A stretch of 64,000 bases of DNA from Cryptosporangium aurantiacum (lineage in GTDB: Bacteria; Actinomycetota; Actinomycetes; Mycobacteriales; Cryptosporangiaceae), in the NCBI RefSeq assembly GCF_900143005.1, contig NZ_FRCS01000022.1, positions 1 through 64,000 of the forward strand, read 5' to 3'. Shown here one piece after another: positions 32,737-57,952 of this stretch. The stretch's first letter is position 1, and each line of letters begins with the position of its first letter. The notes under the pieces were generated by a model that saw only the letters and a list, made by a program, of their open reading frames with translations, was not told where the DNA came from and searched no databases. Made by a program: the position numbers and the translations under genes.

Positions 32737-32910
32737 GGCGGCCCCCTCAGGACGGGGCGCCCGATGTTTGCGAGCGCCCACTCTCTTGTGGTGTCAAAAG
32801 TATGCCATCGCAGTCGACGCTTTCCGGCAAATGCTGTGACCTGTGTTCTTGCTGTGCATTCGTCGCGCTAGGGTGACCGGGCTCAAATCCACCGAGGTAC
32901 GGGGAGTCCG

Positions 32911-39805: not shown

Positions 39806-40585
39806 TCACCGGACCGGGGCGCTGACCCCCAGGTGCCTGGCGACCGTCTCGACCACCGTCGGATCCGCCAGGATCCGGCGGTGCCGCAGGCCGTTGGTGA
39901 CGATCAACCGGGCGTCCGTCCACTGCCGCGCCAGCGCGATCGTCGAATCCACCGGGATCTCCCGGTCCTCGGTGTCGTGGCAGAGCAGGGTCGGCCCGTC
40001 CGGGCACGGACGCCGGTCGATGTCCAGGTCGGCGATCGGGACGCCGCTGAGCCGGTGCTGGACCCGGTCCAGGAAGTCCGCGCGCACCGGGCCCTCGAAG
40101 CCGAAGTAGCCGGCGATCTCGGCGAGGCGATCGGTGAGCGAGACCAGCGGTGAGATGAGCGCGATCCGGCCGACGGTCAGGCCGTGCCGTAGCGCGTGGA
40201 ACGTGGCCGTCGAACCGAACGAGTGCGTCACGACCGCCTCGAACGGCGCGTGGCCGGGCAGCGCTTCGAGCAGTACCTCGCCGTGCCGGACCGGGCTGTA
40301 CTCGGCGTCCGGCGAGCGTCCGTGGCCCGGCGCGTCCACCGCGACCGCGCGTCGTCCACTCGCGACGAGGACGCCGATCAAGCCGGCGAACTGGGTGCTC
40401 CGCCCCTCCCACCCGTGCACGAGCAGCACCGCGGGGCCCTCGTCGCCCCACGTCGACACGACGGCGCCGGACGGCAGCGTGTGCGGGACGGCCGCGGCAC
40501 CGGCGGGCTCCTCCCACGGTTCGGCGGGCATCCGGCGCGGCGCGAAAATCATCTGCGCGGCTGCTTCGGCGGTCATTTCCACCAC
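39806..40585 (-). CDS. Alpha/beta hydrolase
   Basis: About 259 residues of the alpha/beta hydrolase fold. Oxyanion region VLLVHGWEGRSTQFAGLIGVL, DAPGHGRSPDAEYSP after strand 4, nucleophile Ser in VVTHSFGSTATFHAL (HSFGS rather than GxSxG), acid near CHDTEDREIPV and His near LRHRRILADP. GTG 40585 has AGGAG six bases upstream; the longer frame to 40717 crosses the AT-richer promoter region. It is divergent from the halogenase-like gene and could be the cluster's thioesterase/hydrolase, but this is only positional inference. Confidence 0.8.
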   Translation of the reverse strand: MVEMTAEAAAQMIFAPRRMPAEPWEEPAGAAAVPHTLPSGAVVSTWGDEGPAVLLVHGWEGRSTQFAGLIGVLVASGRRAVAVDAPGHGRSPDAEYSPVRHGEVLLEALPGHAPFEAVVTHSFGSTATFHALRHGLTVGRIALISPLVSLTDRLAEIAGYFGFEGPVRADFLDRVQHRLSGVPIADLDIDRRPCPDGPTLLCHDTEDREIPVDSTIALARQWTDARLIVTNGLRHRRILADPTVVETVARHLGVSAPVR

Positions 40586-40690
40586 GGCAGGCTCCTGTTC
40601 GACTGGAATTCGACGGAATGCTTCGGCGGGATTCGAGACGGCTCGGGATCGAACCGTCCAGCACGCTAGTTCCGCCGCGCGCGGAGTGCT

Positions 40691-40701
40691 CCTATCGCCG
40701 T
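40691..40701. promoter_or_regulatory. CCTATCGCCGT motif in the cluster's left divergent promoter
   Basis: This 11-mer, 89 bp before the halogenase-like start, recurs exactly at 50145-50155 upstream of the second biosynthetic operon. Its first ten bases also occur at 12517 and 34589, again between genes. It may be a binding site or promoter element; the sequence alone does not decide. Confidence 0.3.
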
Positions 40702-40789
40702 GAAGGTGATTGCTCATTGGCTCGGTCCGGCCCGGCGGACATGCTTGGCGCCGGAAAGCGGATCTTTCGCGGTCGCGAAGGGAAGTGCG

Positions 40790-42109
40790 ATGAACATCGT
40801 GGGGCAGGCGCCGGAATACGAGGCGATCGTGATCGGAGGCGGACCGGCGGGATCGTCGTGCGCTCTCCGACTCGCCCGAGCCGGAAAGCGGGTGTTAGTG
40901 CTCGAACGGCGCGCTTTTCCGCGCTTTCATATCGGCGAATCCATGCTTCCGTACACCGCCGGAATTCTCGATCAGCTCGGACTGCTGGAGCTATTCCCGC
41001 CGGACGACTACCCGACGAAGTGGGGCGCCGAGTTCTGCGGGGCCGACGGCGCGTTCCGGCGGGTCGACTTCACCTCCCAGGGCGGCGGGCGCCGGGAAGC
41101 GGCGTTCCAGTGCGAACGAGCCGCGTTCGACGACGTCCTGCTGCGCGAAGCCGGCAAGGCGGGCGCCGTCATCCAGGAAGAGGCCAGGGTCACCGGCGTG
41201 CTGACCGAGGGCGACCGCATCGTCGGCGTCGAGTACGAGCGGAACGGCGTGACCCAGCAGGTGCGCGCCCGGTTCGTCGTCGACACCAGCGGGCGCGCCG
41301 GGATCATCTCCCATCAGCACTTCGGACACCGCAGGCCGAACACGCGCCTGCAACTGGTCGCGTACTACAAGCACTACACCGGGGTGGACGAGGCGACGAA
41401 CCCCGGCGTCGAGGGGGACATCCAGGTCGGCAACCACGCCGACGGCTGGCTGTGGGCGATCCCGATCCGCAAGGACGTGCTGAGCGTCGGCGCGGTGACC
41501 CCGGCTGCGACGCTGCGCGGACGCACCCCCGAGGACGTCTTCACCGAGCACGTCTCCCGTGTCGACCGGATCAACGTGCGGCTGGCGGGCGCCACCGCGT
41601 CCGCACCGGTTCGCGGCGAGTCCGACTACTGCTACTACACGAACACCGTCGTCGGGAACGGCTGGTTCCTGGCCGGCGACGCCGGGTGCTTCATCGACCC
41701 GGTGTTCTCGGCCGGTGTCTACCTCGGCGTGGTCAGCGGCACCCGGGCCGGTGAGGCGGTCACCCGGATCCTGGACGGGGCCGACGAGCAGGAGACCGCG
41801 ACCGCCTACGAGAACTTCTACAAGACCGGGTACGACTGCTACACCCGCCTCATCTACGCGTTCTACGAGTCGAACTTCAACTTCATCGCCTACGTCCGGA
41901 ACCTCGCACAGCAGTCGGTGAACATCGAGGGACGGTGGATCGCCCGGCTGCTCAGCGGAGACTTCTGGAGCGAGCTCAACCCGGTCGGCGCCCACCTGCG
42001 GTCGGTCCGGTCCTACGACACCTTCGACGACTTCCCGGTGGCCTACGGCTGTCCCGTCTACCCCGAGCAGGACGCCCGGGAGAAGCACGAGCTGCTGGCC
42101 AATGCTTGA
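40790..42109 (+). CDS. Flavin-dependent halogenase-like FAD oxidoreductase
   Basis: A 439-residue FAD protein. GxGxxG is VIGGGPAGSSCALRLARAGKRVLVLERR, then FPRFHIGESMLPYTAGIL, as in phenol/carrier-bound-substrate halogenases and related reductases. Two marks favour a halogenase: Lys77 in YPTKWGAEF at the place of the hypohalous-acid-binding Lys, and W-x-W-x-I-P at 220-225 (GWLWAIPI), which limits monooxygenase chemistry. A second FAD motif is GDAGCFIDPVFSAGV. ATG 40790 has AGGGAAG upstream; longer starts enter the promoter. Codon 36 is a TTA, and the first 200 bases have weaker G/C third positions than neighbours. Overlaps the next gene by 8 bp. A geranylgeranyl-reductase-like role is the alternative. 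Confidence 0.78.
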   Translation: MNIVGQAPEYEAIVIGGGPAGSSCALRLARAGKRVLVLERRAFPRFHIGESMLPYTAGILDQLGLLELFPPDDYPTKWGAEFCGADGAFRRVDFTSQGGGRREAAFQCERAAFDDVLLREAGKAGAVIQEEARVTGVLTEGDRIVGVEYERNGVTQQVRARFVVDTSGRAGIISHQHFGHRRPNTRLQLVAYYKHYTGVDEATNPGVEGDIQVGNHADGWLWAIPIRKDVLSVGAVTPAATLRGRTPEDVFTEHVSRVDRINVRLAGATASAPVRGESDYCYYTNTVVGNGWFLAGDAGCFIDPVFSAGVYLGVVSGTRAGEAVTRILDGADEQETATAYENFYKTGYDCYTRLIYAFYESNFNFIAYVRNLAQQSVNIEGRWIARLLSGDFWSELNPVGAHLRSVRSYDTFDDFPVAYGCPVYPEQDAREKHELLANA

Positions 42110-43442
42110 GACAACGGTGCCGCAGGTGTCCGAGCCGGACGTCCGAACGCGGCTGGACTACCTCGTCGCGGCGTTCACCACCCAGGTCGGCAGAGACCTC
42201 GAGCACTGGCCTGCCGAGACGCTGGCCGAGTACACGGCGGCGGCGTTGGAGCTGTCCGTCCGGCACGCGAACCGCTCGGCGTTCTACGCCGAGCGGTTGG
42301 GCGACCGGACGGTCCCCACGTCGATCGCGGAGTTCCAGCGTCTCCCGTTCACGTACCCGGCCGAGATCAAGGGCCGCTTGCGGGACCTGCTGGCCTGTTC
42401 CTGGGACGAACTGGCGCAGGTCAACCTCAGCTCCGGCACCACCGCCGGGCCGACCACGTACGTCGGCTACACCGCCGCGGACCTGCGCGGTGACGGCGCT
42501 CGATATGCGCCGGCCGGGCTGTTCGCGTTCGACCCCAGCGACCTGGTGGCGGTGGCGCTGCCCTACGACATGGCCACCGTCGGCCTGAGCATCCACCGGG
42601 ACGTGCAACGCCAGGGCGCCGTGGTCCTGCCGGCTGGCAAGGGCGGCAGCTACGGCCCACCGGAGCGGCTCGTGCAGGCGATCGCGGAACTCGGCGTCAC
42701 CACGCTGTTCAGCACGCCCAGCTTCGCCTGGTACCTCGCGGAGCTGTTCGAGCAGGTGTTCCCGGGCGCGGGCAAGCCGATCGCACACCTGCGCCTCGGC
42801 GGAGAGGGCGCAGCCCCGACCATGCTTACCCGGCTGGGCCTACGCTGGGGTGCGACCGTCCGCCAGTGGTACGGCAGCACGGAGATCGGCGTCATCGCCT
42901 ACTCGTGCGAGCAGGGCACCTACCACGTCGCCGCCGCGAACTGCTTCCTGGAGATCGTCGACGCGGACGGCGGGCCCGTGCCGGACGGGACGATCGGCGC
43001 CGTCGTGACCACCACGCTCGGACGCGGCGGCACCCCGCTGATCCGGTACCACTCCGGTGATCGGGCCGTGCTGCTCGCCGAGCCCTGCGGCTGCGGGCGC
43101 ACGCTGCCCGCGCTGCGGATGTTCGGCCGGGCGACCGACCAGCTGCCCGGCCGGGACGGCGGCGTCTCGCCGTACGTCGTCGAGGAGACGCTGCTGCGCG
43201 CGGTCGCCGACGCGGAACCGTGGTACCACGTCGAGCTGACCGACACCGGGACCACGCTGGTCGCCGAGTGGCCCGCCGCGGCGCCCGCGACCGAGCAGGC
43301 AGCGGCGACGAGCGCGATCGTCCAGCAGGTCGCCGTCGCCGGTCTGGACCTCGACGGCGTCCGGTGGGCCGAGCCGGGGACGCTCGACCGGCCGCGGACG
43401 AAGATGCGCCGGGTCCGCGACGAACGGACCGGTCCGCGATGA
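42102..43442 (+). CDS. PaaK-like AMP-forming ligase
   Basis: A 446-residue adenylating enzyme close to phenylacetate-CoA ligases. Motifs are FAEFQRLPF-type entry (SIAEFQRLPFTYPAEIKG), the P-loop NLSSGTTAGPTTYVGYT, GGEGAAPTML, WYGSTEIGVIAYSC (adenylate-binding) and PLIRYHSGDRAVLL. The C-terminal small domain ends in RPRTKMRRV, with a possible catalytic Lys. It activates an aromatic or aryl-acyl acid as adenylate for transfer to CoA or the cluster's carrier protein. ATG 42102 lies inside the halogenase gene end; the stop overlaps the LLM start by 4 bp. Confidence 0.83.
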   Translation: MLETTVPQVSEPDVRTRLDYLVAAFTTQVGRDLEHWPAETLAEYTAAALELSVRHANRSAFYAERLGDRTVPTSIAEFQRLPFTYPAEIKGRLRDLLACSWDELAQVNLSSGTTAGPTTYVGYTAADLRGDGARYAPAGLFAFDPSDLVAVALPYDMATVGLSIHRDVQRQGAVVLPAGKGGSYGPPERLVQAIAELGVTTLFSTPSFAWYLAELFEQVFPGAGKPIAHLRLGGEGAAPTMLTRLGLRWGATVRQWYGSTEIGVIAYSCEQGTYHVAAANCFLEIVDADGGPVPDGTIGAVVTTTLGRGGTPLIRYHSGDRAVLLAEPCGCGRTLPALRMFGRATDQLPGRDGGVSPYVVEETLLRAVADAEPWYHVELTDTGTTLVAEWPAAAPATEQAAATSAIVQQVAVAGLDLDGVRWAEPGTLDRPRTKMRRVRDERTGPR

Positions 43443-44446
43443 GCGTCCGGATCGGAGCGAAGCTGGCGAACTTCGGCCCGGACGCGACCGCGCTCGCCGA
43501 GGCCGCGGTCGGGCTGGAAGCCGCCGGGGTCGACTCGCTGTGGCTGTCCGACCGGATCGTCACCGTGGATCCGCTCGCGTCGACGTACCCGTTCACCGCC
43601 GACGGACGCGTGCCCTGGACCGACCGGACGCCGTTCGTCGACGTGCTGATCGGCATGGCCGTCGCGGCGGCACACACCCGGCGGGTGGAGATCGGGACCG
43701 GCGTGCTGGTCGCGCCGCTCCGCCACCCGGTGATCCTGGCGAAGCAACTGGCCAGCATCGACGTGCTGTCCGGCGGGCGGGTCGTGGCCGGTATCGGCTC
43801 CGGGTGGATGGCCGAGGAGTTCGACCTGCTCGGGGTCGCGTACGCGGAGCGCGCGAGCCGCACCGACGAGGCCGTCGACGTGCTGCGGGCCTGCTGGAGC
43901 GGTGACGTGCCGCCGCTCGACGGGCCGCACCATCGCCTCCCGGAGGGCGTGTCCTGCTATCCGGCGCCGGCGCGCCGGATCCCGCTGCTGGCCGGCGGGA
44001 TGAGCCCGGCGGCCTTGCGCCGCGCCGGCCGGTTGGACGGCTGGTTCGGCTACGTGATCGTCGACGACCTGGACGTCTCGGTGGTCGAGGCGGCACTGCG
44101 GACGGTCCGGTCCGCGGACGGCACGGGCGGGGGCGGCGCGGACGGGGACGGCGCGGACGGGGGCGGCACGGGCGGGGGCGGCACGGGCGGGGACCGCCGC
44201 GACGTCCTCCGCGTCGTCGGCTCGCCCGCGGCGACGGCGGACGCGCTCCCGGCGCTCGTCCGGGCCGGGGTGACCGAAGTCGTCACCGACCTGGACTGGC
44301 GGCGCCCGGAGCAGGCCGCGGCCGACGTCGCGATGCTGCGCGCGGCGGCCGACGCCGCCATGGCCGGGCGCCCGACCCCAGCGCCGGCCGGGCAGCAACC
44401 GACCCCAGCGCCGGCCGGGCTACCGACCTCGGCGGTGGCTCGATGA
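43439..44446 (+). CDS. LLM class flavin-dependent oxidoreductase with Gly-rich insert
   Basis: A 335-residue luciferase-like oxidoreductase. Core motifs: LAEAAVGLEAAGVDSLWLSDR, VEIGTGVLVAPLRHPVILAKQLASIDVLSGGRVVAGIGSGW-type barrel segments, and RIPLLAGGMSPAALRRAGRLDGWF. Residues around 225-250 are a Gly/Asp/Thr low-complexity insert coded by a repeat at about 44119-44192, and the C-terminus ends in a Pro/Ala repeat (TPAPAGQQPTPAPAGLPT). Both look like slippage expansions. Within the cluster it would be a flavin or F420 oxidoreductase acting on the growing product. It overlaps genes on both sides by 4 bp. Confidence 0.82.
   Translation: MSVRIGAKLANFGPDATALAEAAVGLEAAGVDSLWLSDRIVTVDPLASTYPFTADGRVPWTDRTPFVDVLIGMAVAAAHTRRVEIGTGVLVAPLRHPVILAKQLASIDVLSGGRVVAGIGSGWMAEEFDLLGVAYAERASRTDEAVDVLRACWSGDVPPLDGPHHRLPEGVSCYPAPARRIPLLAGGMSPAALRRAGRLDGWFGYVIVDDLDVSVVEAALRTVRSADGTGGGGADGDGADGGGTGGGGTGGDRRDVLRVVGSPAATADALPALVRAGVTEVVTDLDWRRPEQAAADVAMLRAAADAAMAGRPTPAPAGQQPTPAPAGLPTSAVAR
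44119..44192 (+). repeat. In-frame Gly-coding repeat inside the LLM gene
   Basis: Degenerate units close to GGCACGGGCGGG and GGCGCGGACGGG alternate here. They keep the reading frame, coding Gly/Asp/Thr. Such repeats can change length by slippage without breaking the gene. Confidence 0.6.
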
Positions 44447-45192
44447 CCGACTTCAAGGGACTGACCGCCGTCGTCACCGGCGGCGGGACCGGCATCGGCC
44501 GGGCAACCGCACTGCTGCTCGCCGAGCAGGGAGCGAACGTCCTGGTCGCCGGCCGTCGCAAGGAGCCGCTGGCCGCGCTGGCCGACCTGCGCATCGGCAT
44601 TCACACCGAGGTCGCCGACGTCACCGACGGCCGCGCCGCCGAGCGGGTCGTGGCGGCCGCGCTCGACCGATGGGACCGGATCGACGTGCTGGTCAACAAC
44701 GCCGGCGCGTTCGTCTCGGCGCCGCTGGCGAGCGTGACCGGAGCCCAGATCGACCAGCTGTTCCGCGCGAACGTCCTCGGGCCGACGCTGATGGCACGGG
44801 CCGCGCTGCCCGCGCTGGTCGTGCGGGGAGGCGCGATCGTCAACGTCAGCAGCACGTACGCGCAGAAAGCCGCGCCGAGGGCAGGCCACTACGCGGCGGC
44901 CAAGGCTGCGCTGGAGAGCCTGACCCGCAGCTGGGCGCTGGAACTGGCCCCGCAACGGATCCGGGTGAACGCGGTGGCTCCCGGACCGACCGAAACCGGT
45001 CTGCTGGCCGCGTCCGGCGTGCCCGCCGAGATGATCGAGACGATCAAGCAGCGGGAGATCGCGTCGATCCCGCTGGGCCGCCGCGGCGAGCCGGCGGACG
45101 TCGCGCACTGGATCGCCGCGCTCTGCGCTCCGGCTGCCGGATGGATGACCGGTCAGGTCGTCGGGGTCGACGGTGGTCTGAGTGTCCGCTGA
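44443..45192 (+). CDS. SDR family ketoreductase-type oxidoreductase (cluster copy 1)
   Basis: A 249-residue classical SDR. Cofactor loop AVVTGGGTGIGRATALLLAEQG, structural VLVNNAG, catalytic Ser-Tyr-Lys in VSSTYAQKAAPRAGHYAAAKAALESLTRSW, and end MTGQVVGVDGGLSVR. It probably reduces a beta-keto thioester. It shares the block ESLTRSWxxELAP...RVNAVAPGPTETGxLAASG with the SDR at 50244, showing that the two are recent paralogs. Starts with ATG overlapping the LLM stop and ends inside the next gene (11-bp overlap). Confidence 0.87.
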   Translation: MTDFKGLTAVVTGGGTGIGRATALLLAEQGANVLVAGRRKEPLAALADLRIGIHTEVADVTDGRAAERVVAAALDRWDRIDVLVNNAGAFVSAPLASVTGAQIDQLFRANVLGPTLMARAALPALVVRGGAIVNVSSTYAQKAAPRAGHYAAAKAALESLTRSWALELAPQRIRVNAVAPGPTETGLLAASGVPAEMIETIKQREIASIPLGRRGEPADVAHWIAALCAPAAGWMTGQVVGVDGGLSVR

Positions 45193-45706
45193 GGCCACCG
45201 GCCGGGCGTTCGGTGCCGCAACCGCCGACGGCGGTTCGCCCGCCCGGCGGCCGGGTGGTGTCGAGCGCCTGCTCGACCGTGCCGAGATCGCGGACCGGAT
45301 CGCCGACCTGGCGCTCGGTCTCGACCTGCTCGACGTCGTCCGGTACCGGCGGTGCTTCGCCGACGTCGTCCGGGTGCGCAACCCGCACTTCCGCGGCGGC
45401 GCGGAGTTTCGCGACGTCGCAGGCGACGAGTGGGCGGAGTCGGTGTGCGCGACGCAGGCCCGGTTCACCACGCGCGTCCACGTGCTGACCAACCCGTCGG
45501 TGGCGTTCGTCGGGACGGAGGCCGACGTCGTCCTCACCCAGCAGGCGACGTTCGGCGTCGGCGAGGCGTTCTACCGGGTGGCGGGTCCGCTGCGCCTGGG
45601 CCTGGCGCGGTTGCCGGCCTGGCGGATCACCCGGCTGGATTTTGAGGTCCGGGTCGTGGAGGGAGACCGGGCGCTGTTCGAGCGGGCGTGGGGGGCCGAC
45701 CGGTGA
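45182..45706 (+). CDS. NTF2/SnoaL-fold protein, possible dehydratase
   Basis: A 174-residue protein with the SnoaL_4/ring-hydroxylase-beta-like cone fold: VERLLDRAEIADRIADLALGLDLLDVVRYRRCFADVV, RFTTRVHVLTNPSVAFVGTEADVVLTQQATF. The first 25 residues are Ala/Gly-rich and likely disordered. The fold includes scytalone dehydratase, polyketide cyclases and limonene epoxide hydrolase. No alpha subunit of a ring-hydroxylating dioxygenase is nearby, so a structural partner role is unlikely. As the cluster lacks a hot-dog dehydratase, this protein is the best candidate for dehydration; that is inference. GTG 45182 overlaps the SDR. Confidence 0.72.
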   Translation: MSAEATGRAFGAATADGGSPARRPGGVERLLDRAEIADRIADLALGLDLLDVVRYRRCFADVVRVRNPHFRGGAEFRDVAGDEWAESVCATQARFTTRVHVLTNPSVAFVGTEADVVLTQQATFGVGEAFYRVAGPLRLGLARLPAWRITRLDFEVRVVEGDRALFERAWGADR

Positions 45707-47253
45707 GGCGGGGGAGCGAGAGGCGGGGGAGCGACCTGCGCGCGTTCGACCGGTCCGGGATACACCGCGGGCCGGACGGCGTCGCCCGGTACAGCGTCTC
45801 CCGGCACGGCGAACGGCCCGAGTCGCTGATCCACGCGCTCCGGGCGACCGTCGACCGCGAGCCGGGCACCGAGGCCATCGTCGAGGTCGACGGGCCGCGG
45901 TGGACCTACCGACAGCTCTGGGACCGGGCCGCCGCCGTGGCGGCCGGCCTCCGGGACGACGGCGTCCGTGCCGGTGAGCGCGTGCTGGTCGCGCTGCCCA
46001 GCGGCGCCGACTGGTGCGCCGCCTTCTACGGCGTGCTGCTCGCCGGCGCGGTCGCCGTACCGGTCAACCCGCGGTCGACCGGCCCGGAGATCGCCCACGT
46101 GCGCGACGACGCCGGTGCCGTTCGCGTTCTGGAAGCCGGTCGCTTGCCGGCCGGCCGCAGCGGGCCGGACGAACCGGCGCCGGGCGCGAACGATGTCGCG
46201 GCGATCTTCTACACGAGCGGAACCACCGGTCGTCCGAAAGGGGCGGTCACCACGCACGCCAACTTCCTGGCCAACACCGAGACCGCCCGCCGGGTGCTCG
46301 GCATCGACCAGGCCCCGGTGTGGCGAAGCCTGGTCTCGGTGCCGCTGCACCACGTCACCGGCTGCAACAGCCAGCTTCTTCCGGCCTGCGAGGTCGGGGG
46401 GACGACGGTCGTGCTGCCCCGCTTCGACGTGGCCCGGTTCCTGCGGACGGTCGAGGACGAGCGGATCACCGCGCTGATGTCGGTGCCGTCGGTCTATCAG
46501 CTCGCGCTGGCGGCACGAGCGATCGACCGCACGGACACCTCGGCCGTGCGCTCGATCACCTACGGCGGCGCCCCGATGCCGCCGGACGTCGTCACCGGCC
46601 TGCGGACCGCGTTCCCGAAGGCCCGGCTGGGCAGCGGCTACGGTCTCACCGAGACCGCCTCGTTCACCGCGTACCTCCCGCACGAGCAGGTACTGACGGC
46701 CGCGGCGGACGTCGTCGGCTTCCCCGTTCCGGTGGTCGACCTCGCGCTCTCCGACCCGGCTCCGGACGGGGTCGGAGAGCTCCTGGTACGCGGGCCGAAC
46801 GTGGTGCGTGGGTACTGGAACAACCCGGACGCGACCGCCCGGACGTTCGGCGACGGCTGGCTACGCACCGGTGACCTGGCGCGGATCGACGAGGACGGCG
46901 CCGTCCACCTCGTCGACCGGGCGAAGGACATGATCGTCCGAGGCGGGGAGAACGTGTACTCCGCCGAGGTGGAGCGGGTCTTCTCCGGCCACCCGGACGT
47001 CGTCGAGGTCGCGGTCGTGGCGGTGCCGGATCGGCTGGCCGGTGAACGGGTCGCGGCCGCCGTCGTGCTGCGCCCCGGGGACGAGGCGCCGCCGCTGCGT
47101 CCGATCTGGCGTTTCGTCCGCGAGCACCTGGCCCGGTACAAGGTGCCCGACCTGGTGGCGGTGTGGCGGGGGCCGCTGCCCCGGAACCCCGGCGGCAAGG
47201 TCGACAAGGCAGCGGTACGTGCGACCGCCGGATGGCGGGTGGCACCCCGGTGA
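45703..47253 (+). CDS. Class I acyl-CoA/acyl-ACP synthetase (AMP-binding)
   Basis: A 516-residue ANL-superfamily ligase. Core motifs in order: IFYTSGTTGRPKGAVTTHANF (P-loop), RLGSGYGLTETASF, WLRTGDLARIDEDGAVHLVDRAKDMIVRGGENVYSAEVE (hinge Asp and A8 loop) and PRNPGGKVDKAAV with the catalytic Lys. Length is normal. It activates a free acid, for example a cinnamate-like or fatty starter, onto CoA or carrier protein. The cluster thus has two adenylating enzymes of different subfamilies. GTG 45703 overlaps the previous stop by 4 bp; the first 20 residues are Arg-rich. Confidence 0.86.
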   Translation: MRRGSERRGSDLRAFDRSGIHRGPDGVARYSVSRHGERPESLIHALRATVDREPGTEAIVEVDGPRWTYRQLWDRAAAVAAGLRDDGVRAGERVLVALPSGADWCAAFYGVLLAGAVAVPVNPRSTGPEIAHVRDDAGAVRVLEAGRLPAGRSGPDEPAPGANDVAAIFYTSGTTGRPKGAVTTHANFLANTETARRVLGIDQAPVWRSLVSVPLHHVTGCNSQLLPACEVGGTTVVLPRFDVARFLRTVEDERITALMSVPSVYQLALAARAIDRTDTSAVRSITYGGAPMPPDVVTGLRTAFPKARLGSGYGLTETASFTAYLPHEQVLTAAADVVGFPVPVVDLALSDPAPDGVGELLVRGPNVVRGYWNNPDATARTFGDGWLRTGDLARIDEDGAVHLVDRAKDMIVRGGENVYSAEVERVFSGHPDVVEVAVVAVPDRLAGERVAAAVVLRPGDEAPPLRPIWRFVREHLARYKVPDLVAVWRGPLPRNPGGKVDKAAVRATAGWRVAPR

Positions 47254-47302
47254 AGCCGAGACCGGTCCGCCGGACCCTGATCCGATCGACGGGAGAGACG
47301 TC

Positions 47303-48989: not shown

Positions 48990-49003
48990 CGTGTCCGCAT
49001 TCC

Positions 49004-49918: not shown

Positions 49919-50243
49919 GGAAAGTCCTCCCAGTCGATGGAAGGGTGCGGCCGGCCCAACGCTGCGCCTGCCCCGAGGCTATCCACTCCGGTCAGCCGGA
50001 GGAACGTATGCGGAGTAGATAGAACACGTTCCGTCTGCTGAACAACAGTCGAACTCCGGAAATGACCGGCCACGGCAACCAACGCGGCATGAAATGTGGG
50101 TATCCATTGTGGTCGCCGGATTGCGGGCGGCGAATTCTGCACAGCCTATCGCCGTCCACGGAACTGAATATTGCTGCGGGCAGATTCTCTGCGTTGAGTA
50201 ATTCGCAGCTAATCGCTTACCGACCCTCGCGAAGGGCTCTGCC
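49919..50243. promoter_or_regulatory. Divergent regulatory region of the biosynthetic cluster, AT-richer
   Basis: This 325-bp gap is visibly lower in GC than its surroundings and has no gene. It holds a 12-bp inverted repeat, CTATCCACTCCG (49979-49990) and CGGAGTAGATAG (50011-50022), matching at 11 of 12 positions with a 20-bp spacer, then GAAC-N2-GTTC (50022-50031). It also holds the motif CCTATCGCCGT at 50145-50155. The inverted repeat, with its T...A ends and position beside a LysR gene, is a reasonable LysR operator candidate. Confidence 0.5.
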
Positions 50244-51044: not shown

Positions 51045-52317
51045 GCAAGTCGTGGTCACCGGTCTGGGTGCGGTGTCGCCCTACGGGGTCGGCGTTCCCC
51101 GGCTGATCGCCGGCCTGTACGCCGGGGAGCCGACGGCGACCAAGGTGACCCGCTTCGACGCCGACGCGCATCCGGCCCGGATCGCCTGCGAGGTGCCGAA
51201 CTTCGTACCCGGTGAGTGGCTACCGCGAAAGCTGGTCAGCCAACTCGACCCGTTCGCCCAGTACGGCGTCGTCGCCGCCGAGGAAGCGCTGACCCAGGCC
51301 GGGCTGCTCGCCCCGCGCGACGCGGCCGGCCAGCCATCGGCTGCCCTGCCGTTGGCCGACGGGATCGACGCCGACCGCGTCGCGACGCTGATCACGTCGA
51401 GTGCCGGCGGCATCTCCGAGATGCTGACCCAGCACGCCCGGCTGCTCACCGGCGGGCCGCGCCGCGTCCGCCCGTTCTTCGCGATCGCGATGCCGATCAA
51501 CCTGGTGTCCGGGCAGGTAGCGATCCGGCACGGGCTGCGCGGGCCGTCGTTCTCGGTGGTGTCGGCCTGCGCGAGCGCGACCGACTCGATCGGCGTCGGA
51601 CTGGACCTGATCCGGGCAGGCCGGGCCGATGTCGTGGTGGCGGGCGGGGCCGAGGCGACGATCAACCCGCTCACGATGGCGGCCTTCGGCATCGTGGGCG
51701 CGCTGAGCAAGCGCAACGACGACCCGGCCGCCGCGAGCCGACCGTTCGACCGGGACCGCGACGGCTTCGTGATGGGCGAGGGCGCCGGCGTCGTGGTGTT
51801 CGAGCGGGCCGCGCACGCGGCCGCCCGGGGCGCGGTCCCGCTGGCCGAACTGGCCGGCTACGGGATCAGCAACGACGCCTACCACCCGAGCGGACCGCAC
51901 CCCGACGCCGACGGAGCGATCCGCGCGCTGCGCCTGGCGCTGGCCGACGCCGACCTCGCGCCGTCCGACGTCGACCACGTCAACGCACACGGCACGTCGA
52001 CGCCGGCCAACGACCGCACCGAAGCGATGGCCGTTCGCGCCGTCCTTGGTCCGCACGCCGACCGCACGTCGGTGACCAGCACCAAGTCGGCGGTCGGCCA
52101 TCTGCTCGGCGCGGCCGGAGCGGTGGAGTCGATTGCCACGATCGAGGCCGTACGCCGCCAGGAGATCGCGCCCACGCTCAACCTCGACCACCAGGACCCG
52201 GACTGCCCGCTCGACGTGGTCCACGGCGGGCCGCGGGCGACCGCAGTACGGGTGGCGTGCAGCAACTCGTTCGGTTTCGGCGGCCACAACGGCGTCCTGG
52301 TCTACCGGGGGCTCTGA
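51037..52317 (+). CDS. Beta-ketoacyl-ACP synthase (FabF/KS-alpha-like)
   Basis: A 426-residue condensing enzyme with a full catalytic set: Cys178 in VVSACASATDSIG, His319 in NAHGTSTPAND, Lys350 and His355 in TKSAVGHLLGAAG, and the C-terminal SNSFGFGGHNGVLV. It would extend a carrier-bound acyl chain by decarboxylative condensation with malonyl-ACP. No chain-length factor, second KS or acyltransferase is seen, so it works more like FabF than a minimal type II PKS. ATG 51037 has GGAGGA upstream; ATG 51022 is an alternative. The TGATG junction couples it to the next gene. Confidence 0.9.
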   Translation: MREQVVVTGLGAVSPYGVGVPRLIAGLYAGEPTATKVTRFDADAHPARIACEVPNFVPGEWLPRKLVSQLDPFAQYGVVAAEEALTQAGLLAPRDAAGQPSAALPLADGIDADRVATLITSSAGGISEMLTQHARLLTGGPRRVRPFFAIAMPINLVSGQVAIRHGLRGPSFSVVSACASATDSIGVGLDLIRAGRADVVVAGGAEATINPLTMAAFGIVGALSKRNDDPAAASRPFDRDRDGFVMGEGAGVVVFERAAHAAARGAVPLAELAGYGISNDAYHPSGPHPDADGAIRALRLALADADLAPSDVDHVNAHGTSTPANDRTEAMAVRAVLGPHADRTSVTSTKSAVGHLLGAAGAVESIATIEAVRRQEIAPTLNLDHQDPDCPLDVVHGGPRATAVRVACSNSFGFGGHNGVLVYRGL

Positions 52318-53441
52318 TGGGCACCACCGATTGCATCGTGGTCGGCGCCGGTCCGACCGGGCTGATGACCGCGCTGTTGCTGGGCCGCTCCGGGCACAGC
52401 GTCCTGGTACTGGAGCGGCAGCCGACGCCGCTCCCGCCGCCCGGCGGCGTCGTGCTGCAGCCGGCGACGCTCGGCCTGTTCGACCAGTTCGGGACGTTGC
52501 CGATGCTGGAGGCGGTCGGCTCGCGGATCGCGGGTGTCGACGAGATCACCGGCGGCGGCGTCACCTACGCGCCGGACTACGCGGACCTGCCGGACGTCGC
52601 GGTGCCCTACGCGCTCACTGTCCCGCTCCGCGTGTTGCGAGACGTCCTCGGCGGGATGGTGGCGGCGCAGGACGGCGTCCGCGTGGAGTTCGGCGCGGAG
52701 GTGACCGCCATCGACCAGGACGCGGCCGGGTGCGTCGTCCACAGCGGGACGGCCCGCCGGACCCGCTACGTCATCGGGGCTGACGGCAAGTACTCCACGG
52801 TCCGGACGGTCGCCGGATTCGTGGCGGACGTCCGGCCGCTGCCCCGGCGCCAGTTGATCCTTCGCGCTCCGCGTCCGGACGGGTGGCCCGACCGGATCCG
52901 CAGCCACCGGGGCGACCGTCCGTTCGTGGTGATTCCCAGCACCCCGGAGACGATCCACGTGTTCGGCGACGTCGTGGCGGCCGAGCCGGCGGCGGCGCTC
53001 GAGGAACTGTGCCGCGCGGTCGCGCCGACCGCGCCGGAGCTGAGCCGGCTGCTCCGGTCGTCGGCCGACCCGGTCGCCCTGATCCGGCATCACCTGGTCA
53101 CGGTGGAGCGCTGGGTCCGCGACCGCGTGGCGCTGCTCGGCGACTCGGCGCACAGCGTCCACCCCTACGGAGGGCAGGGCATCAACCTCGGGTTGCAGGA
53201 CGCCGTCCTGCTCTGCCGCGCCCTCGACCGCTGCCTGGATCCCGAGCGCCCCGACCCGGCGGCGCCGGCCGAGTACGAGGCGCTCCGGCGCCCGTTCGTC
53301 GAGACGTTCCAGCGCTACCAAGAGACGTTGCTCAGCACCGAGCCGGGCGATTCGCCGCTGTATCGCACGGCCTTCGCCGAGCTGGCGCTCGGCCAGCCGG
53401 AACTCCGCCCGTTGCTGCGCGCAGCGACGGCACCCGGATAG
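52317..53441 (+). CDS. FAD-dependent aromatic monooxygenase (PHBH fold)
   Basis: A 374-residue class A flavoprotein monooxygenase. GxGxxG: CIVVGAGPTGLMTALLLGRSGHSVLVLER; DG motif: YVIGADGKYSTVR; GD motif: VALLGDSAHSVHPYGGQGINLGLQDAVLLCRAL. These enzymes hydroxylate phenols or related rings, or quinone-type substrates, using NAD(P)H and O2. The N-terminal substrate region (PPPGGVVLQPATLGLFDQFG) is typical. It begins on the last base of the KS stop. In the cluster it could hydroxylate the ring made from the MIO enzyme's product. Confidence 0.87.
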   Translation: MGTTDCIVVGAGPTGLMTALLLGRSGHSVLVLERQPTPLPPPGGVVLQPATLGLFDQFGTLPMLEAVGSRIAGVDEITGGGVTYAPDYADLPDVAVPYALTVPLRVLRDVLGGMVAAQDGVRVEFGAEVTAIDQDAAGCVVHSGTARRTRYVIGADGKYSTVRTVAGFVADVRPLPRRQLILRAPRPDGWPDRIRSHRGDRPFVVIPSTPETIHVFGDVVAAEPAAALEELCRAVAPTAPELSRLLRSSADPVALIRHHLVTVERWVRDRVALLGDSAHSVHPYGGQGINLGLQDAVLLCRALDRCLDPERPDPAAPAEYEALRRPFVETFQRYQETLLSTEPGDSPLYRTAFAELALGQPELRPLLRAATAPG

Positions 53442-53456
53442 TCCACAGGAGGAAGA

Positions 53457-55085
53457 GTGCAGCACCAGAGGAATGCCCTGGTCATCGACGGCCGGACGCT
53501 CCGGGTCGACGACGTGGTCGACGTCGCGTCCGGCGGCGCGGACGTCCGGCTCGCCGGCTCGGCCGCGGTCCGGATCGAGCAGTCGCGAGAGCTCAAGCAG
53601 ACGCTGATCGACAGCGGGCAGCCGATCTACGGCGTCACCACCGGATTCGGCGACAGCGTCACCCGGCAGATCAGCTCCGCGAAGACCGCGGAGCTGCAGC
53701 GGAACCTGGTGCGGTACCACCTGAACGGGACCGGGCCGATCGCCGCGGCGGACGTGGTGCGCGCGACGATGCTCATCCGAGCGAACTGCCTGGCGCGGGG
53801 CGCGTCCGGAATCCGCGTCGCGGTGATCGACGGCCTGCTGGCGCTGGTCAACCACGACGCGTTGCCGCTGATCCCGGAACGCGGCTCGGTCGGCGCGAGC
53901 GGTGACCTCGTTCCGCTCTGTTACGTCGCCTCGGCCGTGTTCGGGGAAGGGCGGGTGACGTACCGGAATGAGACACGTCCGGCGACCGACGTGTGGACCG
54001 AGATCGGCCTGCCGCCCGTCGTCCCCGAGGCGAAGGACGGGTTGGCGCTGATCAACGGGACGTCGTTCTCCGCCGCGTTCGCGGTGCTGGCGCTGGCCGA
54101 GGCGGAGCGGCTGGTCCGTCTCGCCGAGTTGTGCACGGCGATGGCGTCGGAGGCGTTGCTCGGCAACAGCGGGCACTTCGCGCCGTTCATCCACGCGCAG
54201 AAGCCGCACCCGGGCCAGCAGGCGAGCGCGGCGGCCGTGCGCGAGCTGCTCGCCGACTCCGGGCTCGCGCTCGACCACGGCCGGGTCGTCGGCCTCACCG
54301 ACCGGATCGGCGAGCGCGGCTACCTGAAGCAGGAGCGGTCGATTCAGGACCGGTACTCGGTGCGGTGTGCGCCGCACGTGATCGGCATGGTCCGCGACAC
54401 CGCGGCCTGGGTGCGGCAGTGGGTCGAGATCGAGATCAACTCCACCAACGACAACCCGCTGTTCGACGCCGGCGACGGCATCGTGCACAGCGGCGGCAAC
54501 TTTTACGGCGGCCATCTCGTCCAGGCGATGGACGCGCTGAAAGTCGGCGTCGCGAACCTCGCTGACCTGCTCGACCGCCAGCTCGAGCTGGTCGTCGACG
54601 AGAAGTTCAACAACGGGCTGACGCCGAACCTGGTGCCCCGGTTCGCCGCGGGTGACTGGCGCGCGGGCCTGCACCACGGTTTCAAGGGTATGCAGATCGC
54701 CTGCTCCGCGATCGCCGCCGAGGCGCTCAAGGGCACGATGCCCGCCAGCGTGTTCTCCCGGTCCACCGAGGCGCACAACCAGGACAAGGTCAGCATGGCG
54801 CCGATCGCCGGACGTGATGCCCGCGCTGTCGCCGCGCTGGTCGAGGAGGTCGTCGCGATCCACCTGCTCGCGATGTGCCAGGCGCTGGACCTGCGGGGTG
54901 TCGAGAACGCGGCGCCGCTCACCCGGGGCATCCACGCGCTGATCCGCTCTCGGGTGCCGGAGCTCACCGACGACCGCGCGATGGACGGCGACATCGCGGT
55001 CGTGCTCCACCTCGTGCGCAGCGGAGCGCTCGTCGCCGAACTCGACCGGCTGCGAGGCCGGGGCCAGGCGATTCCGGTCGGCTGA
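53457..55085 (+). CDS. MIO-type aromatic amino acid ammonia-lyase/aminomutase
   Basis: A 542-residue enzyme of the HAL/PAL/TAL/TAM family. The MIO cofactor forms from Ala147-Ser148-Gly149 (RGSVGASGDLVPL). Other active-site parts are Tyr58 (IYGVTTGFGD), NGTS (200-203), Tyr300 and Arg303 (DRYSVRCAPHVIG), NFYGGH and HNQDKVSM. The selectivity pair in LVRYHLNGTG is Tyr87-His88; His88 and Tyr58 match the positions of His93 and Tyr63 of the tyrosine aminomutase SgcC4 as I recall them, with a constant offset of five. Tyrosine lyases usually have His-Leu, phenylalanine lyases Phe-Leu and histidine lyases Ser-His there. It gives an aryl-acrylic acid or a beta-amino acid. GTG 53457 follows AGGAGGAA. Confidence 0.88.
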   Translation: MQHQRNALVIDGRTLRVDDVVDVASGGADVRLAGSAAVRIEQSRELKQTLIDSGQPIYGVTTGFGDSVTRQISSAKTAELQRNLVRYHLNGTGPIAAADVVRATMLIRANCLARGASGIRVAVIDGLLALVNHDALPLIPERGSVGASGDLVPLCYVASAVFGEGRVTYRNETRPATDVWTEIGLPPVVPEAKDGLALINGTSFSAAFAVLALAEAERLVRLAELCTAMASEALLGNSGHFAPFIHAQKPHPGQQASAAAVRELLADSGLALDHGRVVGLTDRIGERGYLKQERSIQDRYSVRCAPHVIGMVRDTAAWVRQWVEIEINSTNDNPLFDAGDGIVHSGGNFYGGHLVQAMDALKVGVANLADLLDRQLELVVDEKFNNGLTPNLVPRFAAGDWRAGLHHGFKGMQIACSAIAAEALKGTMPASVFSRSTEAHNQDKVSMAPIAGRDARAVAALVEEVVAIHLLAMCQALDLRGVENAAPLTRGIHALIRSRVPELTDDRAMDGDIAVVLHLVRSGALVAELDRLRGRGQAIPVG

Positions 55086-55095
55086 AGGAGGACAC

Positions 55096-55344
55096 ATGGA
55101 GACGCAGAGCACATTCGACGCGTTCGTTGCGATTCTCGACGATGTGGCCGGCCTCGATCCGGCCTCGGTGCGGGCCGACGACGCCTTCGGTGACGACCTC
55201 GACGTCGACTCGCTCACGATGGTGGAGGTGCTGATGTCGGTCGAGGACCGGTTCGGAGTGACGGTTTCGGAGGACACCGTCCGGAGCCTTCACACGGTGG
55301 GGGACATGGTGGCGCACCTCGAGAAAGCGGTGCTTCCGTCGTGA
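55096..55344 (+). CDS. Acyl carrier protein
   Basis: An 82-residue free-standing carrier protein. The phosphopantetheine attachment Ser39 is in the classic DDLDVDSLTMVEVLMSVED; helix III follows in VSEDTVRSLHTVGDMVAHLEKA. It is acidic and of normal size. It would carry intermediates for the ketosynthase, ketoreductases, enoyl reductase and perhaps the halogenase. It lies 10 bp after the MIO gene and overlaps the esterase start by 4 bp. No phosphopantetheinyl transferase is in the window. A peptidyl-carrier role is also possible. Confidence 0.92.
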   Translation: METQSTFDAFVAILDDVAGLDPASVRADDAFGDDLDVDSLTMVEVLMSVEDRFGVTVSEDTVRSLHTVGDMVAHLEKAVLPS

Positions 55345-56696
55345 GCAGTCGGCCGCCGGGCGCCGCGATCGTCGCGGAGCCGCCGGCGGGGCCGGTACGC
55401 GGCCGGGTGCGGTCCGGTGTCGCGGTGTTCCGGGCCATCCCGTACGCCGCGCCGCCGACCGGGAACCTGCGGTTCCGCGCTCCGCAGCCGCCGAGCGTCT
55501 GGACGGACGTGCGCGACGCGACGCACCCCGGCCCGGCGGCGCCGCAGGGCGAGTCGATGCTCGTCGGGCTGCTCGGACCAGATCCCGCCCCGCAGAGCGA
55601 GGCCGGCTGCCTGACGCTGAACGTGTACCGCCCCGAGGGCGCGGCGAGCCTGCCGGTGCTGGTGTGGTTGCACGGCGGTGGCTTCCGCACCGGGCGCGCC
55701 GGTGGTCCGCGGCAGGACGCCCACGCGCTGGCCCGGCGCGGCCCGATGGTGGTCGTGACGCTGAACTACCGGCTGGGTCCGCTCGGGAGCCTCTACACCC
55801 CCGGCCTGGCCGGGGACGGCTCGGCCGAGGACCGGGGCGAGGCGAACGTCGCGCTGCTCGACCAGGCCGCGGCGTTGCGCTGGGTCGCGGCGAACATCGC
55901 GGCGTTCGGGGGCGACCCGGATCGGCTCACGGTGGGCGGCCACTCCGCCGGTGCGCTGTCGGCGGTGGCGCTCGCCTGTGCCCCGCCGAGCGGCGTCCGC
56001 ATTCGTCGTTTGATCCTGCAGAGCGCCCCGCTGGAGGACCTGGCTACGCCGGCCGAAGCGACGACGTACGCGAAAGCGTTCGTCGCCAGGCTCGGGATCG
56101 ACGGCGACGAGCTGGGCCGGCTCCGCGCGCTGCCGGCCGAGGCGCTGGTCGACGCGGCCGCGGCGCTGCCGGAGCGGTTCCGGACCGCGTCGCTGGTGGT
56201 GGCCGGCGCCGCCGGACTGCCGCATCCGCCGCACGACCCGGCCGCGCGGCTGCCGACCGGCCTGGAACTACTGGCCGGGACCGTCCGCGACGAAGCCGCC
56301 GCGTTCCTGCCGCCGGGAGCCCCGGCCGAACACCGTGCGGCGGTGACCGAGGGCCTGTTCACCGCGCCGCTGGACCAGCTGTGCGAGCGGATCGGCGCCG
56401 AGGGAGGGACGTCCTACCGGTACCGGTTCGACTGGTGCCCGCCGACCGTCCCCGGTGGATACCCCGCCGGTCATGGCGTGGACACGCCGTTCCTCCTCGG
56501 GGACGCGGCGGCCTGGTCGGCGGCGCCGATGCTCGCCGGTGTGCCGGCGGCGGACGTGGAGGCGCTCCGAGCGGCGATCGGCGACGCGGTAGCGCGGTTC
56601 GTCTGCGTCGGCCACCCGGGCGGCGGCTGGTGTCCGTGGACTCCCGGGGACGCAGCCGTCCACCGCGTCGACCTGACCGCCAGCCCGGTGGTGTGA
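55341..56696 (+). CDS. Carboxylesterase family protein
   Basis: A 451-residue type B esterase without a signal peptide. RAIPYAAPPTGNLRFRAP and EAGCLTLNVYRPEG are family landmarks; the oxyanion hole is LVWLHGGGFRTGRAG and the nucleophile Ser is in LTVGGHSAGALSAVAL. The acid region is LLAGTVRDEAAAFLP and a His is expected in PAGHGVDTPFLLG. Unlike the secreted esterase at 27.7 kb it should be cytoplasmic, and may release or trim the cluster product. It has GTG overlapping the ACP stop and a 4-bp overlap with the antiporter gene. Confidence 0.86.
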   Translation: MSSRPPGAAIVAEPPAGPVRGRVRSGVAVFRAIPYAAPPTGNLRFRAPQPPSVWTDVRDATHPGPAAPQGESMLVGLLGPDPAPQSEAGCLTLNVYRPEGAASLPVLVWLHGGGFRTGRAGGPRQDAHALARRGPMVVVTLNYRLGPLGSLYTPGLAGDGSAEDRGEANVALLDQAAALRWVAANIAAFGGDPDRLTVGGHSAGALSAVALACAPPSGVRIRRLILQSAPLEDLATPAEATTYAKAFVARLGIDGDELGRLRALPAEALVDAAAALPERFRTASLVVAGAAGLPHPPHDPAARLPTGLELLAGTVRDEAAAFLPPGAPAEHRAAVTEGLFTAPLDQLCERIGAEGGTSYRYRFDWCPPTVPGGYPAGHGVDTPFLLGDAAAWSAAPMLAGVPAADVEALRAAIGDAVARFVCVGHPGGGWCPWTPGDAAVHRVDLTASPVV

Positions 56697-57952
56697 GCGG
56701 CGTGCATCCCCCGGACACCAAGGTCCAGATCCTCCTGGCGGTCGGCGTCATCCTGGTCGTGGCCTGGCTGGTCGGCCGACTCGTCCGGACCGTCGGTCAG
56801 CCGCGTGTCCTCGGCGAGATCATCGCCGGTGTGGTGCTGGGCCCCAGCGTGCTGGGGCTGATGCTGCCCTCGGTCGCCGACTACCTGTTTCCCGCCCCGG
56901 TCGTCGCCGCCCTCGGCATCCTCGCCCAGGTCGGGCTCGTTCTGTTCATGTTCCTCGTCGGGCTGGAACTGGATCTCGCGCCGCTGCGCGGGCAAGGCTC
57001 CCGGCTCGCGGCGGTGAGCGGGGCGTCGATCGTGGTGCCGCTCGTGCTGGCGCTGGTGCTCGCCGTCGCGCTGTATCCGCACTACGGTGCCGACGCCGAC
57101 CGGCTCGCGTTCTGCCTGTTCTTCGGTGCGGCGATGGCGATCACCGCGTTCCCGGTGCTGGCCCGGCTCCTCCGTGAGTCCGGGCTCGCCGGCACTCGGG
57201 TGGGTGCGCTCAGCCTGATGTCGGCCGCGGTGAACGACGTCGCGGCCTGGTGCCTGGTGGCCGTCGTCATCGCGCTCGGGCGCAGCGACGGCCCGGCCGA
57301 GGTGCTCCGGAGCTTCGGGCTGGCCGCGGTCTATCTGGCCGTGATGCTCGCGGTGGTGCGTCCGCTGCTGGCCAGGCTGCCGAGCGTGCCGATCTGGCTC
57401 GTGCTGGTGGTTGCCGTGTTCAGCGCCTGGTTCGCCGATCAGGCGGGTGTCCACGTGATCTTCGGTGGGTTCCTGGCCGGCGTCGTGATGCCGCGACGAC
57501 CGGAATGGCGGCAAACCGTCCACGAACGGCTGGACGTCGTCGTCTCGCACCTGCTGCTGCCGGTGTTCTTCGTCGTCGTGGGCCTGTCCACCCACGTCGA
57601 CCAGCTCCGGACCGCCGCCGACTGGGCGGTCGTCGTGCTGGTCATCGCGGTCGCCACCGTGGGCAAGCTGGGCGGTTCGCTGGTCGCGGCACGGCTGGTC
57701 GGGGAGCGGTGGCCGGACGCCGCGCGGCTGGGCGTGCTGATGAACACCCGCGGGCTGACCGAGATCGTGGTGCTCGCGGTCGGCCTGCAACTCGGGCTGA
57801 TCACCAACACCGTCTTCACGATCATGGTGCTGATGGCACTGTGTACGACGCTGATGGCCGCGCCGCTGCTGCGGGCGATCGACCGGGCCTCCCCCCGTGA
57901 GCGGTCCGATCCGGCGGAGCCCCGCCCGCTCGATCCGGTGCACGCGAGCTGA
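56693..57952 (+). CDS. CPA2-type cation/proton antiporter
   Basis: A 419-residue membrane protein with about 12-13 helices, Kef/NapA-like: GQPRVLGEIIAGVVLGPSVLGLMLP at the start, GLVLFMFLVGLELDLAPLR, AMAITAFPVLARLLRESGLAGTRVGALSLMSAAVNDVAAWC (unwound helices with the conserved ND), and LGVLMNTRGLTEIVVLAVGLQLGLI. No cytoplasmic RCK domain follows, only a polar tail. It exchanges Na+ or K+ for H+. Antiporters of this type occur in many antibiotic clusters and could serve export or resistance. GTG 56693 overlaps the esterase stop; GTG 56702 is an alternative. Confidence 0.85.
   Translation: MSGVHPPDTKVQILLAVGVILVVAWLVGRLVRTVGQPRVLGEIIAGVVLGPSVLGLMLPSVADYLFPAPVVAALGILAQVGLVLFMFLVGLELDLAPLRGQGSRLAAVSGASIVVPLVLALVLAVALYPHYGADADRLAFCLFFGAAMAITAFPVLARLLRESGLAGTRVGALSLMSAAVNDVAAWCLVAVVIALGRSDGPAEVLRSFGLAAVYLAVMLAVVRPLLARLPSVPIWLVLVVAVFSAWFADQAGVHVIFGGFLAGVVMPRRPEWRQTVHERLDVVVSHLLLPVFFVVVGLSTHVDQLRTAADWAVVVLVIAVATVGKLGGSLVAARLVGERWPDAARLGVLMNTRGLTEIVVLAVGLQLGLITNTVFTIMVLMALCTTLMAAPLLRAIDRASPRERSDPAEPRPLDPVHAS

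Follow-up and report, generated by a model that had tools for sequence, protein, structure and literature searches.

A seventeen-gene cluster shared by Cryptosporangium aurantiacum and Pseudonocardia sp. CNS-139 joins a BagA/FevV-like MIO enzyme, a halogenase and fatty-acid-synthase-like genes

The genome of Cryptosporangium aurantiacum (G000; 9.58 Mb in 44 contigs) carries on its contig C22 a block of 17 tightly packed genes, which is a real, conserved, apparently rare and orphan biosynthetic gene cluster. The window referred to throughout is the stretch of 64,000 nucleotides at positions 1-64000 of that contig, and the cluster occupies its positions 39806-57952. It encodes a 4-methylideneimidazole-5-one (MIO) enzyme together with a flavin-dependent halogenase, two adenylating enzymes and a discrete set of fatty acid synthase (FAS)-like enzymes; key catalytic motifs are present in the encoded enzymes, and the gene content and order are found in two genera. 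The reading that we prefer, with about even confidence, is that the block is one dedicated cluster in which p-coumarate derived from a tyrosine ammonia-lyase (TAL) would prime the discrete FAS-like enzymes to give a halogenated, reductively processed aryl-acyl metabolite.

Gene content and conservation of the cluster

Gene models were drawn from codon-position GC content and from family scans with Pfam and NCBIfam, to which all statements below on families recognised among the 17 genes refer. The block consists of two seven-gene operons, a tandem pair of LysR genes on the minus strand between them, and a divergent hydrolase gene. Operon 1 runs in the order halogenase, PaaK-like ligase, luciferase-like monooxygenase (LLM)-class oxidoreductase, short-chain dehydrogenase/reductase (SDR) 1, NTF2-fold protein, FadD-like ligase and InhA-like reductase, and operon 2 in the order SDR 2, ketosynthase, flavin adenine dinucleotide (FAD)-dependent monooxygenase, MIO enzyme, acyl carrier protein (ACP), carboxylesterase and CPA2 antiporter. 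With the assigned starts, neighbouring genes overlap by 1-23 bases at nine of the 12 junctions within the operons, in keeping with the mostly overlapping starts and stops reported in an earlier note on this DNA. The family scans likewise recovered every enzyme listed in that note, and both LysR genes, at their coordinates; the alpha/beta hydrolase (39806-40717, minus strand) is the one gene which it did not list as a separate item. Its statement that acyltransferase, chain-length factor and modular synthase are missing also holds, as none was recognised among the 17 genes.

In Pseudonocardia sp. CNS-139 all 17 genes are present in identical order and orientation, at about 60-86% identity. This favours the view of the earlier note that the genes form a single biosynthetic unit with a discrete FAS-like set, and not a row of unrelated neighbours. 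The relative was reached through a scan for the MIO protein that covered 84,980 species genomes by exact peptide patterns, and from which 80 of the 102 confirmed loci were kept; among these 80, the CNS-139 locus (84% identity) is the sole one above 67%. The CNS-139 version alone holds an additional open reading frame (ORF), a 3-deoxy-D-arabino-heptulosonate 7-phosphate (DAHP) synthase (PF00793, 4.2e-59; L092:7431-8111), situated after the FadD-like ligase and before the InhA gene. Several of its genes (paaK, acs, lysR2, sdr2, ketosynthase, FAD monooxygenase and MIO) are split over reading frames. Decay of the cluster was considered and rejected; as the draft (G005) has split rpoB and gyrA genes as well, the interruptions are read as assembly errors.

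Close homologues are scarce elsewhere. The MIO protein was found at E <= 1e-120 in one of five genomes of the family, the window's own, and not in three congeners. As only part of the candidates was scored per genome, so that absence is not proof, the following counts are to be read with the number scored: the halogenase at E <= 1e-100 in one of 62 genomes of the CNS-139 genus, namely CNS-139 itself (mostly 26 candidates), and at E <= 1e-110 in four of 394 genomes of the class, own included (four candidates); the ketosynthase at E <= 1e-115 only in the own genome among 397 of the order (four candidates); and the FAD monooxygenase at E <= 1e-70 only in the own genome among 396 of the phylum (five candidates). 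That the cluster was seen in two genera but in none of their congeners hints at horizontal transfer.

The halogenase homologues in the other three genomes of the class set are 47-51% identical to that of the cluster. At two of these loci, viewed over about 20 kb each, no called ORF matches the cluster MIO protein, and the third (L097) was viewed over 4 kb only. At L098:4780-10245 (G138) a halogenase homologue (51%) stands directly behind an antiporter (37% to that of the cluster); an alpha/beta hydrolase and a FadD-like ligase (31%) are also found there, with no MIO match within 20 kb. Contig C380 of G004, where a ketosynthase lies near InhA, was rejected as a variant cluster: the 18.5 kb viewed from the start of this 24.6 kb contig hold two ketosynthase-like ORFs and a housekeeping-looking SDR-InhA pair, and no called ORF there matches the cluster TAL or halogenase.

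The MIO enzyme and its pairing with a halogenase

The curated model that best matches the MIO protein is NF041222, a tyrosine ammonia-lyase model with 760.8 bits, followed by histidine ammonia-lyase (HAL; 459.7 bits) and tyrosine 2,3-aminomutase (TIGR03832; 372.7 bits against a cut-off of 501). NCBIfam labels NF041222 as BagA/FevW; the TAL gene is fevV in the available portion of PMC6692506, hence BagA/FevV is used here. HutH of the same genome, taken as a control, gave the reverse picture (HAL 690.9, BagA 263.2, aminomutase 387.5 bits). Ten proteins were scanned in this way, eight chosen from the 80 loci and the two further MIO proteins of the own genome; the BagA model was best for all eight relatives, at 717-882 bits, each under the cut-off of 1000. 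The protein carries ASGD at residue 147, so that the MIO-forming ASG motif is present, and NLVRYH. In a tree of 82 rows, to which one of the fetched loci contributed no row and CNS-139 a partial piece, the window and CNS-139 proteins are paired (100/100) within a 14-row clade (100/97).

In bagremycin biosynthesis, the BagA-type enzyme makes trans-coumaric acid, according to the part of PMC6692506 available. Because the MIO enzyme is BagA/FevV-like and its bagremycin counterpart makes this acid, p-coumarate is the likely entry to the pathway.

The earlier note had instead drawn a parallel with enediynes. The beta-tyrosine unit of C-1027 is built with an MIO enzyme, a halogenase, a carrier and a flavin hydroxylase, and all four occur together in the present cluster. 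An aminomutase making such a unit would also agree with the best PDB matches of the MIO protein, which are tyrosine aminomutase entries; none of its 39 PDB matches is named BagA or FevV, however, so that this ranking is no test of that family. The aminomutase score (372 bits) lies below that of the own HutH (388) and hence looks like background, and it is far from the 760 bits on the BagA/FevV model. The carrier is of FAS type, and the flavin hydroxylase belongs to the single-component FAD_binding_3 enzymes. The cluster differs from C-1027 in the subfamily of its MIO enzyme and in the types of carrier and hydroxylase; no enediyne polyketide synthase (PKS) was recognised among the 17 genes. The parallel is thus rejected on the model scores with their HutH control, and we judge a beta-tyrosine product very improbable. 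The third MIO-family protein of the genome (L003; G000:C3:683739-685091) lies about 12 kb from HutH and reaches 256 bits on the HAL model, whose cut-off is 539.

The halogenase is assigned to the CndH/Bmp2/CmlS/PltA type. Nine of its top ten PDB matches are described as halogenases or named CmlS, PltA, ChlB4 or radH, and the remaining one (3nix) is described as a flavoprotein/dehydrogenase; 3e1t is presumably CndH, and 5bva and 5bul presumably Bmp2. A WxWxIP motif and a catalytic lysine are signatures of flavin-dependent halogenases, and both are found here (WLWAIP at 250; YPTKWG at 104), aligning by eye in four PDB alignments (3e1t, 8zop, 5bul, 3i3l). The model for CmlS proper (NF033113) is not passed, at 195 bits against 900. 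Several enzymes of the type act on carrier-bound phenols or pyrroles.

The pairing of TAL and halogenase may be recurrent in actinomycetes. When MIO genes with a halogenase neighbour were labelled on the MIO tree, three changes were needed, a value reached by one of 500 shuffles, with the window and CNS-139 pair making up two of the five labelled rows. Halogenase homologues with 49-55% identity to that of the cluster stand near BagA-like MIO genes at three of the 80 loci, all from other actinomycetes (L007:10001-12943; L012:6831-11624; L029:10001-12924), with a type I PKS also present at L012, and both an AMP ligase and an anthranilate-synthase-like enzyme at L029. The CNS-139 locus (L083) is the fourth, its halogenase lying just past the stretch first fetched.

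Fatty-acid-synthase-like enzymes and the proposed route

The cluster ketosynthase and InhA are copies separate from the housekeeping ones. The ketosynthase has a complete set of catalytic residues (Cys, HGT, KSAVGH) and is 44% identical to the FabF-like copy of its own genome on contig C8. It falls outside a 17-row clade (100/100), apparently housekeeping, which unites that copy with rows of most relatives, and it groups with its CNS-139 counterpart (one partial piece) on a stem of 0.81. It gave the single ketoacyl-synt match among the 17 genes, and no second ketosynthase or chain-length factor was recognised; the ketosynthase and chain-length-factor partnership of highly reducing type II PKS (ava/cma) is thus not found here. 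InhA-like matches occur in all 17 genomes searched, own included. The other InhA of the genome (C1:855521) is 63% identical to the cluster enoyl reductase and groups with congeners, and the cluster copies of the window and CNS-139 are paired at 100/100. On the narrower InhA model NF040631 the enzyme has 315 bits, under the cut-off of 430.

Target duplication is known in clusters for FAS inhibitors, and the two homologues could mainly be insensitive copies that protect the producer, the product being a smaller halogenated phenylpropanoid. The InhA copy could suit this role. It closely resembles InhA proteins elsewhere, with best matches of 58-68% in 15 of the 16 relatives searched and 51% in the remaining one, and also its own second copy, with the position of the pair in the tree unresolved (10 of 17 inner branches, the deeper ones mostly). 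The explanation requires two targets simultaneously, however, and ACP, SDRs and ligases are encoded alongside; the low identity of the ketosynthase to its FabF-like copy, and its place outside the clade, make a self-resistance role unlikely for it. The explanation as a whole is considered improbable.

For dehydration the candidate is the NTF2-fold protein. It has no PDB match by sequence; its AF2 model (predicted local distance difference test, pLDDT, 70; two input sequences; low values over residues 1-30) matched 321 PDB chains at E <= 0.001 in Foldseek, among them a putative scytalone dehydratase and LinA. The top match is a protein of unstated function, and such broad matches are no proof of function. 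The reading frame of SDR 2 holds a low-complexity stretch, GEGEGEGEGEG (window 50541-50600).

In the preferred reading, whose substrates, step order, activities, number of extensions and product we infer from these assignments, the MIO enzyme would deaminate tyrosine to p-coumarate, and the PaaK-like ligase, the FadD-like ligase or both would load the aryl acid onto the ACP. The halogenase would act on the carrier-bound phenol, the ketosynthase would add one or more malonyl units, the two SDRs and the NTF2-fold protein would carry out keto reduction and dehydration, and the InhA-like reductase would saturate the enoyl-ACP intermediates; malonyl transfer would be supplied by primary metabolism. 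The FAD monooxygenase, whose best PDB matches are rifampin-monooxygenase-like, and the LLM oxidoreductase may modify the ring or the chain. Release or trimming of the product may fall to the esterase or the alpha/beta hydrolase, and the antiporter may aid export or tolerance. The DAHP synthase of CNS-139 fits a supply of shikimate and tyrosine, as bagremycin and ferroverdin clusters also hold one. Chain extension and full reduction by free-standing enzymes of the cluster, as the earlier note proposed, is plausible.

Several points weigh against this route. No hot-dog dehydratase, malonyl transferase or thioesterase was recognised among the 17 genes, and the cluster has just one close relative, CNS-139. 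The MIO protein stays under the curated NF041222 cut-off of 1000 despite its lead there, its top PDB sequence matches are the aminomutase entries given above, and a His at the selectivity position is not enough to tell Tyr lyases from His lyases. It is also conceivable that the aryl part and a FAS-derived acyl part are made independently and then joined. The product of TAL and halogenase would in that case be a halogenated (dihydro)coumarate, that of the FAS-like set would be a short modified acyl chain, and the PaaK-like enzyme would couple an activated acid with another building block through an ester or amide bond. Bagremycin synthetase and ligases of AjiA1/NatL2 type catalyse such couplings. 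The two adenylating enzymes do belong to different subfamilies, and the nearest PDB relatives of the PaaK-like one are AjiA1 and PaaK-like ligases. It matches the BagE/FevW model with 100 bits, far under the cut-off of 800, and scores 153 on the DVU1553-family ligase and 141 on PaaK, all under cut-off. The block holds a single carrier protein, and no second precursor pathway was recognised in it. We regard the joining of separately made parts as rather doubtful.

A narrower form of the preferred route is a minimal aryl-fatty-acid synthase lacking a chain-length factor, in which a TAL-derived, halogenated p-coumaroyl starter would be reduced and iteratively extended on the single ACP by one FabF-type ketosynthase, the NTF2-fold dehydratase and the InhA-type enoyl reductase, to halogenated omega-(hydroxyphenyl)alkanoates. 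We consider this form less likely than not; to our knowledge, no bacterial pathway to such compounds has been described. If true, it would be a FAS-like route with a halogenated phenylpropanoid as its starting unit, separate from aryl-polyene and ava-type systems, the possible NTF2-fold dehydratase supplying the missing step. Together the two genomes delimit a 17-gene unit usable for heterologous expression.

Related systems share parts of this content, as far as the available portions of their descriptions go. The bagremycin and ferroverdin (bag/fev) clusters, in which TAL, DAHP synthase and bagremycin synthetase (BagE/FevW) are neighbours, have in common with the present cluster a BagA/FevV-type TAL, an adenylating enzyme and an FAD-dependent oxygenase, as well as the DAHP synthase in its CNS-139 version (PMC6692506). 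Unlike them, the present cluster has a halogenase, ketosynthase, enoyl reductase, ACP and SDRs, while neither a UbiD-type decarboxylase nor a 3-amino-4-hydroxybenzoate (3,4-AHBA) synthase was recognised in the block. The ava and cma clusters (avenalumic and p-coumaric acid) similarly place an aryl acid on a discrete carrier and lengthen it with free-standing ketosynthase and reductase, and cma also has a LysR gene and a flavin mononucleotide (FMN)-dependent oxidoreductase; they contain a ketosynthase/chain-length-factor pair, two ACPs, nitrite-forming genes and a diazotase (PMC10777205). The present cluster has one ketosynthase and one ACP, with no nitrite-forming pair recognised, and in addition it encodes an enoyl reductase, a TAL and a halogenase. 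Because a diazotase may look like an adenylating enzyme, one could be present here.

In flexirubin and aryl polyene clusters, TAL and a ligase likewise supply the 4-hydroxycinnamoyl starter that primes a FAS-like system, but these clusters make polyenes and have several ketosynthases, dehydratases and thioesterases, against one ketosynthase and an enoyl reductase here (PMC3992019). For cispentacin a discrete single-extension system has been described, in the part of the source available (PMC10698177). The combination of halogenase, single ketosynthase and enoyl reductase was not found in the available portions of the bag/fev, ava/cma and flexirubin descriptions. The earlier note knew of no described cluster with this content, and the literature search, with most subscription journals outside its reach, found no counterpart. 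The content is an unusual combination of familiar parts, and the route is sensible but unproven.

Features, boundaries and a repeated element

Table 1. Genes of the cluster and copies of the repeated element (window positions; identities are to the CNS-139 counterpart)
Feature	Position	Strand	Remarks
Alpha/beta hydrolase, divergent from operon 1	39806..40717	-	Pfam Abhydrolase_6 8.5e-10; true start perhaps further inside
11-base element CCTATCGCCGT	40691..40701	+	99 bases before chosen halogenase ATG
Flavin-dependent halogenase, CndH/Bmp2/CmlS/PltA type	40790..42109	+	Pfam Trp_halogenase; 77% identity
PaaK-like adenylating enzyme	42102..43442	+	AMP-binding (Pfam)
LLM-class F420-type oxidoreductase	43439..44446	+	TIGR03619 187 bits, over cut-off 166.9
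SDR 1, FabG-like ketoreductase candidate	44443..45192	+	adh_short_C2 2e-60; YAAAK motif
NTF2-fold SnoaL-like protein, dehydratase candidate	45182..45706	+	SnoaL_4 7.6e-7
FadD-like acyl-CoA/ACP ligase	45688..47253	+	AMP-binding 6.1e-79; NF004837 390 bits, cut-off 476
InhA/FabI-type enoyl reductase	47303..48145	+	NF005908 397 bits, over cut-off 299
LysR regulator 1	48093..48989	-	LysR_substrate and HTH_1 in ORF 48093-49523; 79% identity
LysR regulator 2	49004..49918	-	LysR_substrate and HTH_1 (Pfam)
CCTATCGCCGT, second copy	50145..50155	+	99 bases before SDR 2
SDR 2	50244..51044	+	adh_short_C2 6.9e-41; YAATK motif
FabF-type ketosynthase	51022..52317	+	TIGR03150 504.6 bits, over cut-off 493.75
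Single-component FAD aromatic monooxygenase	52317..53441	+	FAD_binding_3 1.6e-38
BagA/FevV-type MIO ammonia-lyase (predicted to convert tyrosine to p-coumarate)	53457..55085	+	Lyase_aromatic 1.8e-167
FAS-type ACP, DSL serine	55096..55344	+	PP-binding 6.7e-12; NF002147 76 bits, cut-off 84
Carboxylesterase, GHSAG motif	55341..56696	+	COesterase 1e-72
CPA2-family cation/proton antiporter	56693..57952	+	Na_H_Exchanger 2.1e-51; 72% identity

The start of LysR regulator 1, an ATG at 48989, was read off the sequence and lies inside the longer ORF. The alpha/beta hydrolase is 65% identical to its CNS-139 counterpart over residues 40-299, and the antiporter has 136 bits on TIGR00932, under the cut-off of 238.

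The 11-base element CCTATCGCCGT stands before both operons, with two copies in the 64 kb window against 0.05 expected, and could be either a site linked to the LysR regulators or a promoter core common to both operons. CNS-139 has CCTATCG at both matching places, 98 bases before a halogenase ATG in the one case and with an unsure SDR 2 start in the other. Window pairs of matching sizes drawn at random also shared some 11-mer in 506 of 4000 cases, and the 7-base core SCTATCG is not enriched in the window (eight matches against 7.3 expected); it has three matches in L092, equalled by 16 of 200 shuffles, and none in L093. With these counts weighing against it, the case for a promoter element is modest.

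On the right, the edge of the cluster is supported since the window genes xdhA and xdhC have no counterpart at E <= 1e-5 in the 4.5 kb that follow the antiporter in CNS-139. On the left, the CNS-139 contig stops about 115 bases beyond the hydrolase, and the comparison reaches no further. The cluster is followed on its 3' side by molybdenum hydroxylase genes and preceded on its 5' side by an ABC (ATP-binding cassette) transporter with a sugar-type binding protein. Upstream, in sequence beyond the reach of the CNS-139 contig, lie a cytochrome P450 gene at 31561-32781 and a sigma factor gene with a SnoaL-like C-terminal part at 30543-31436.

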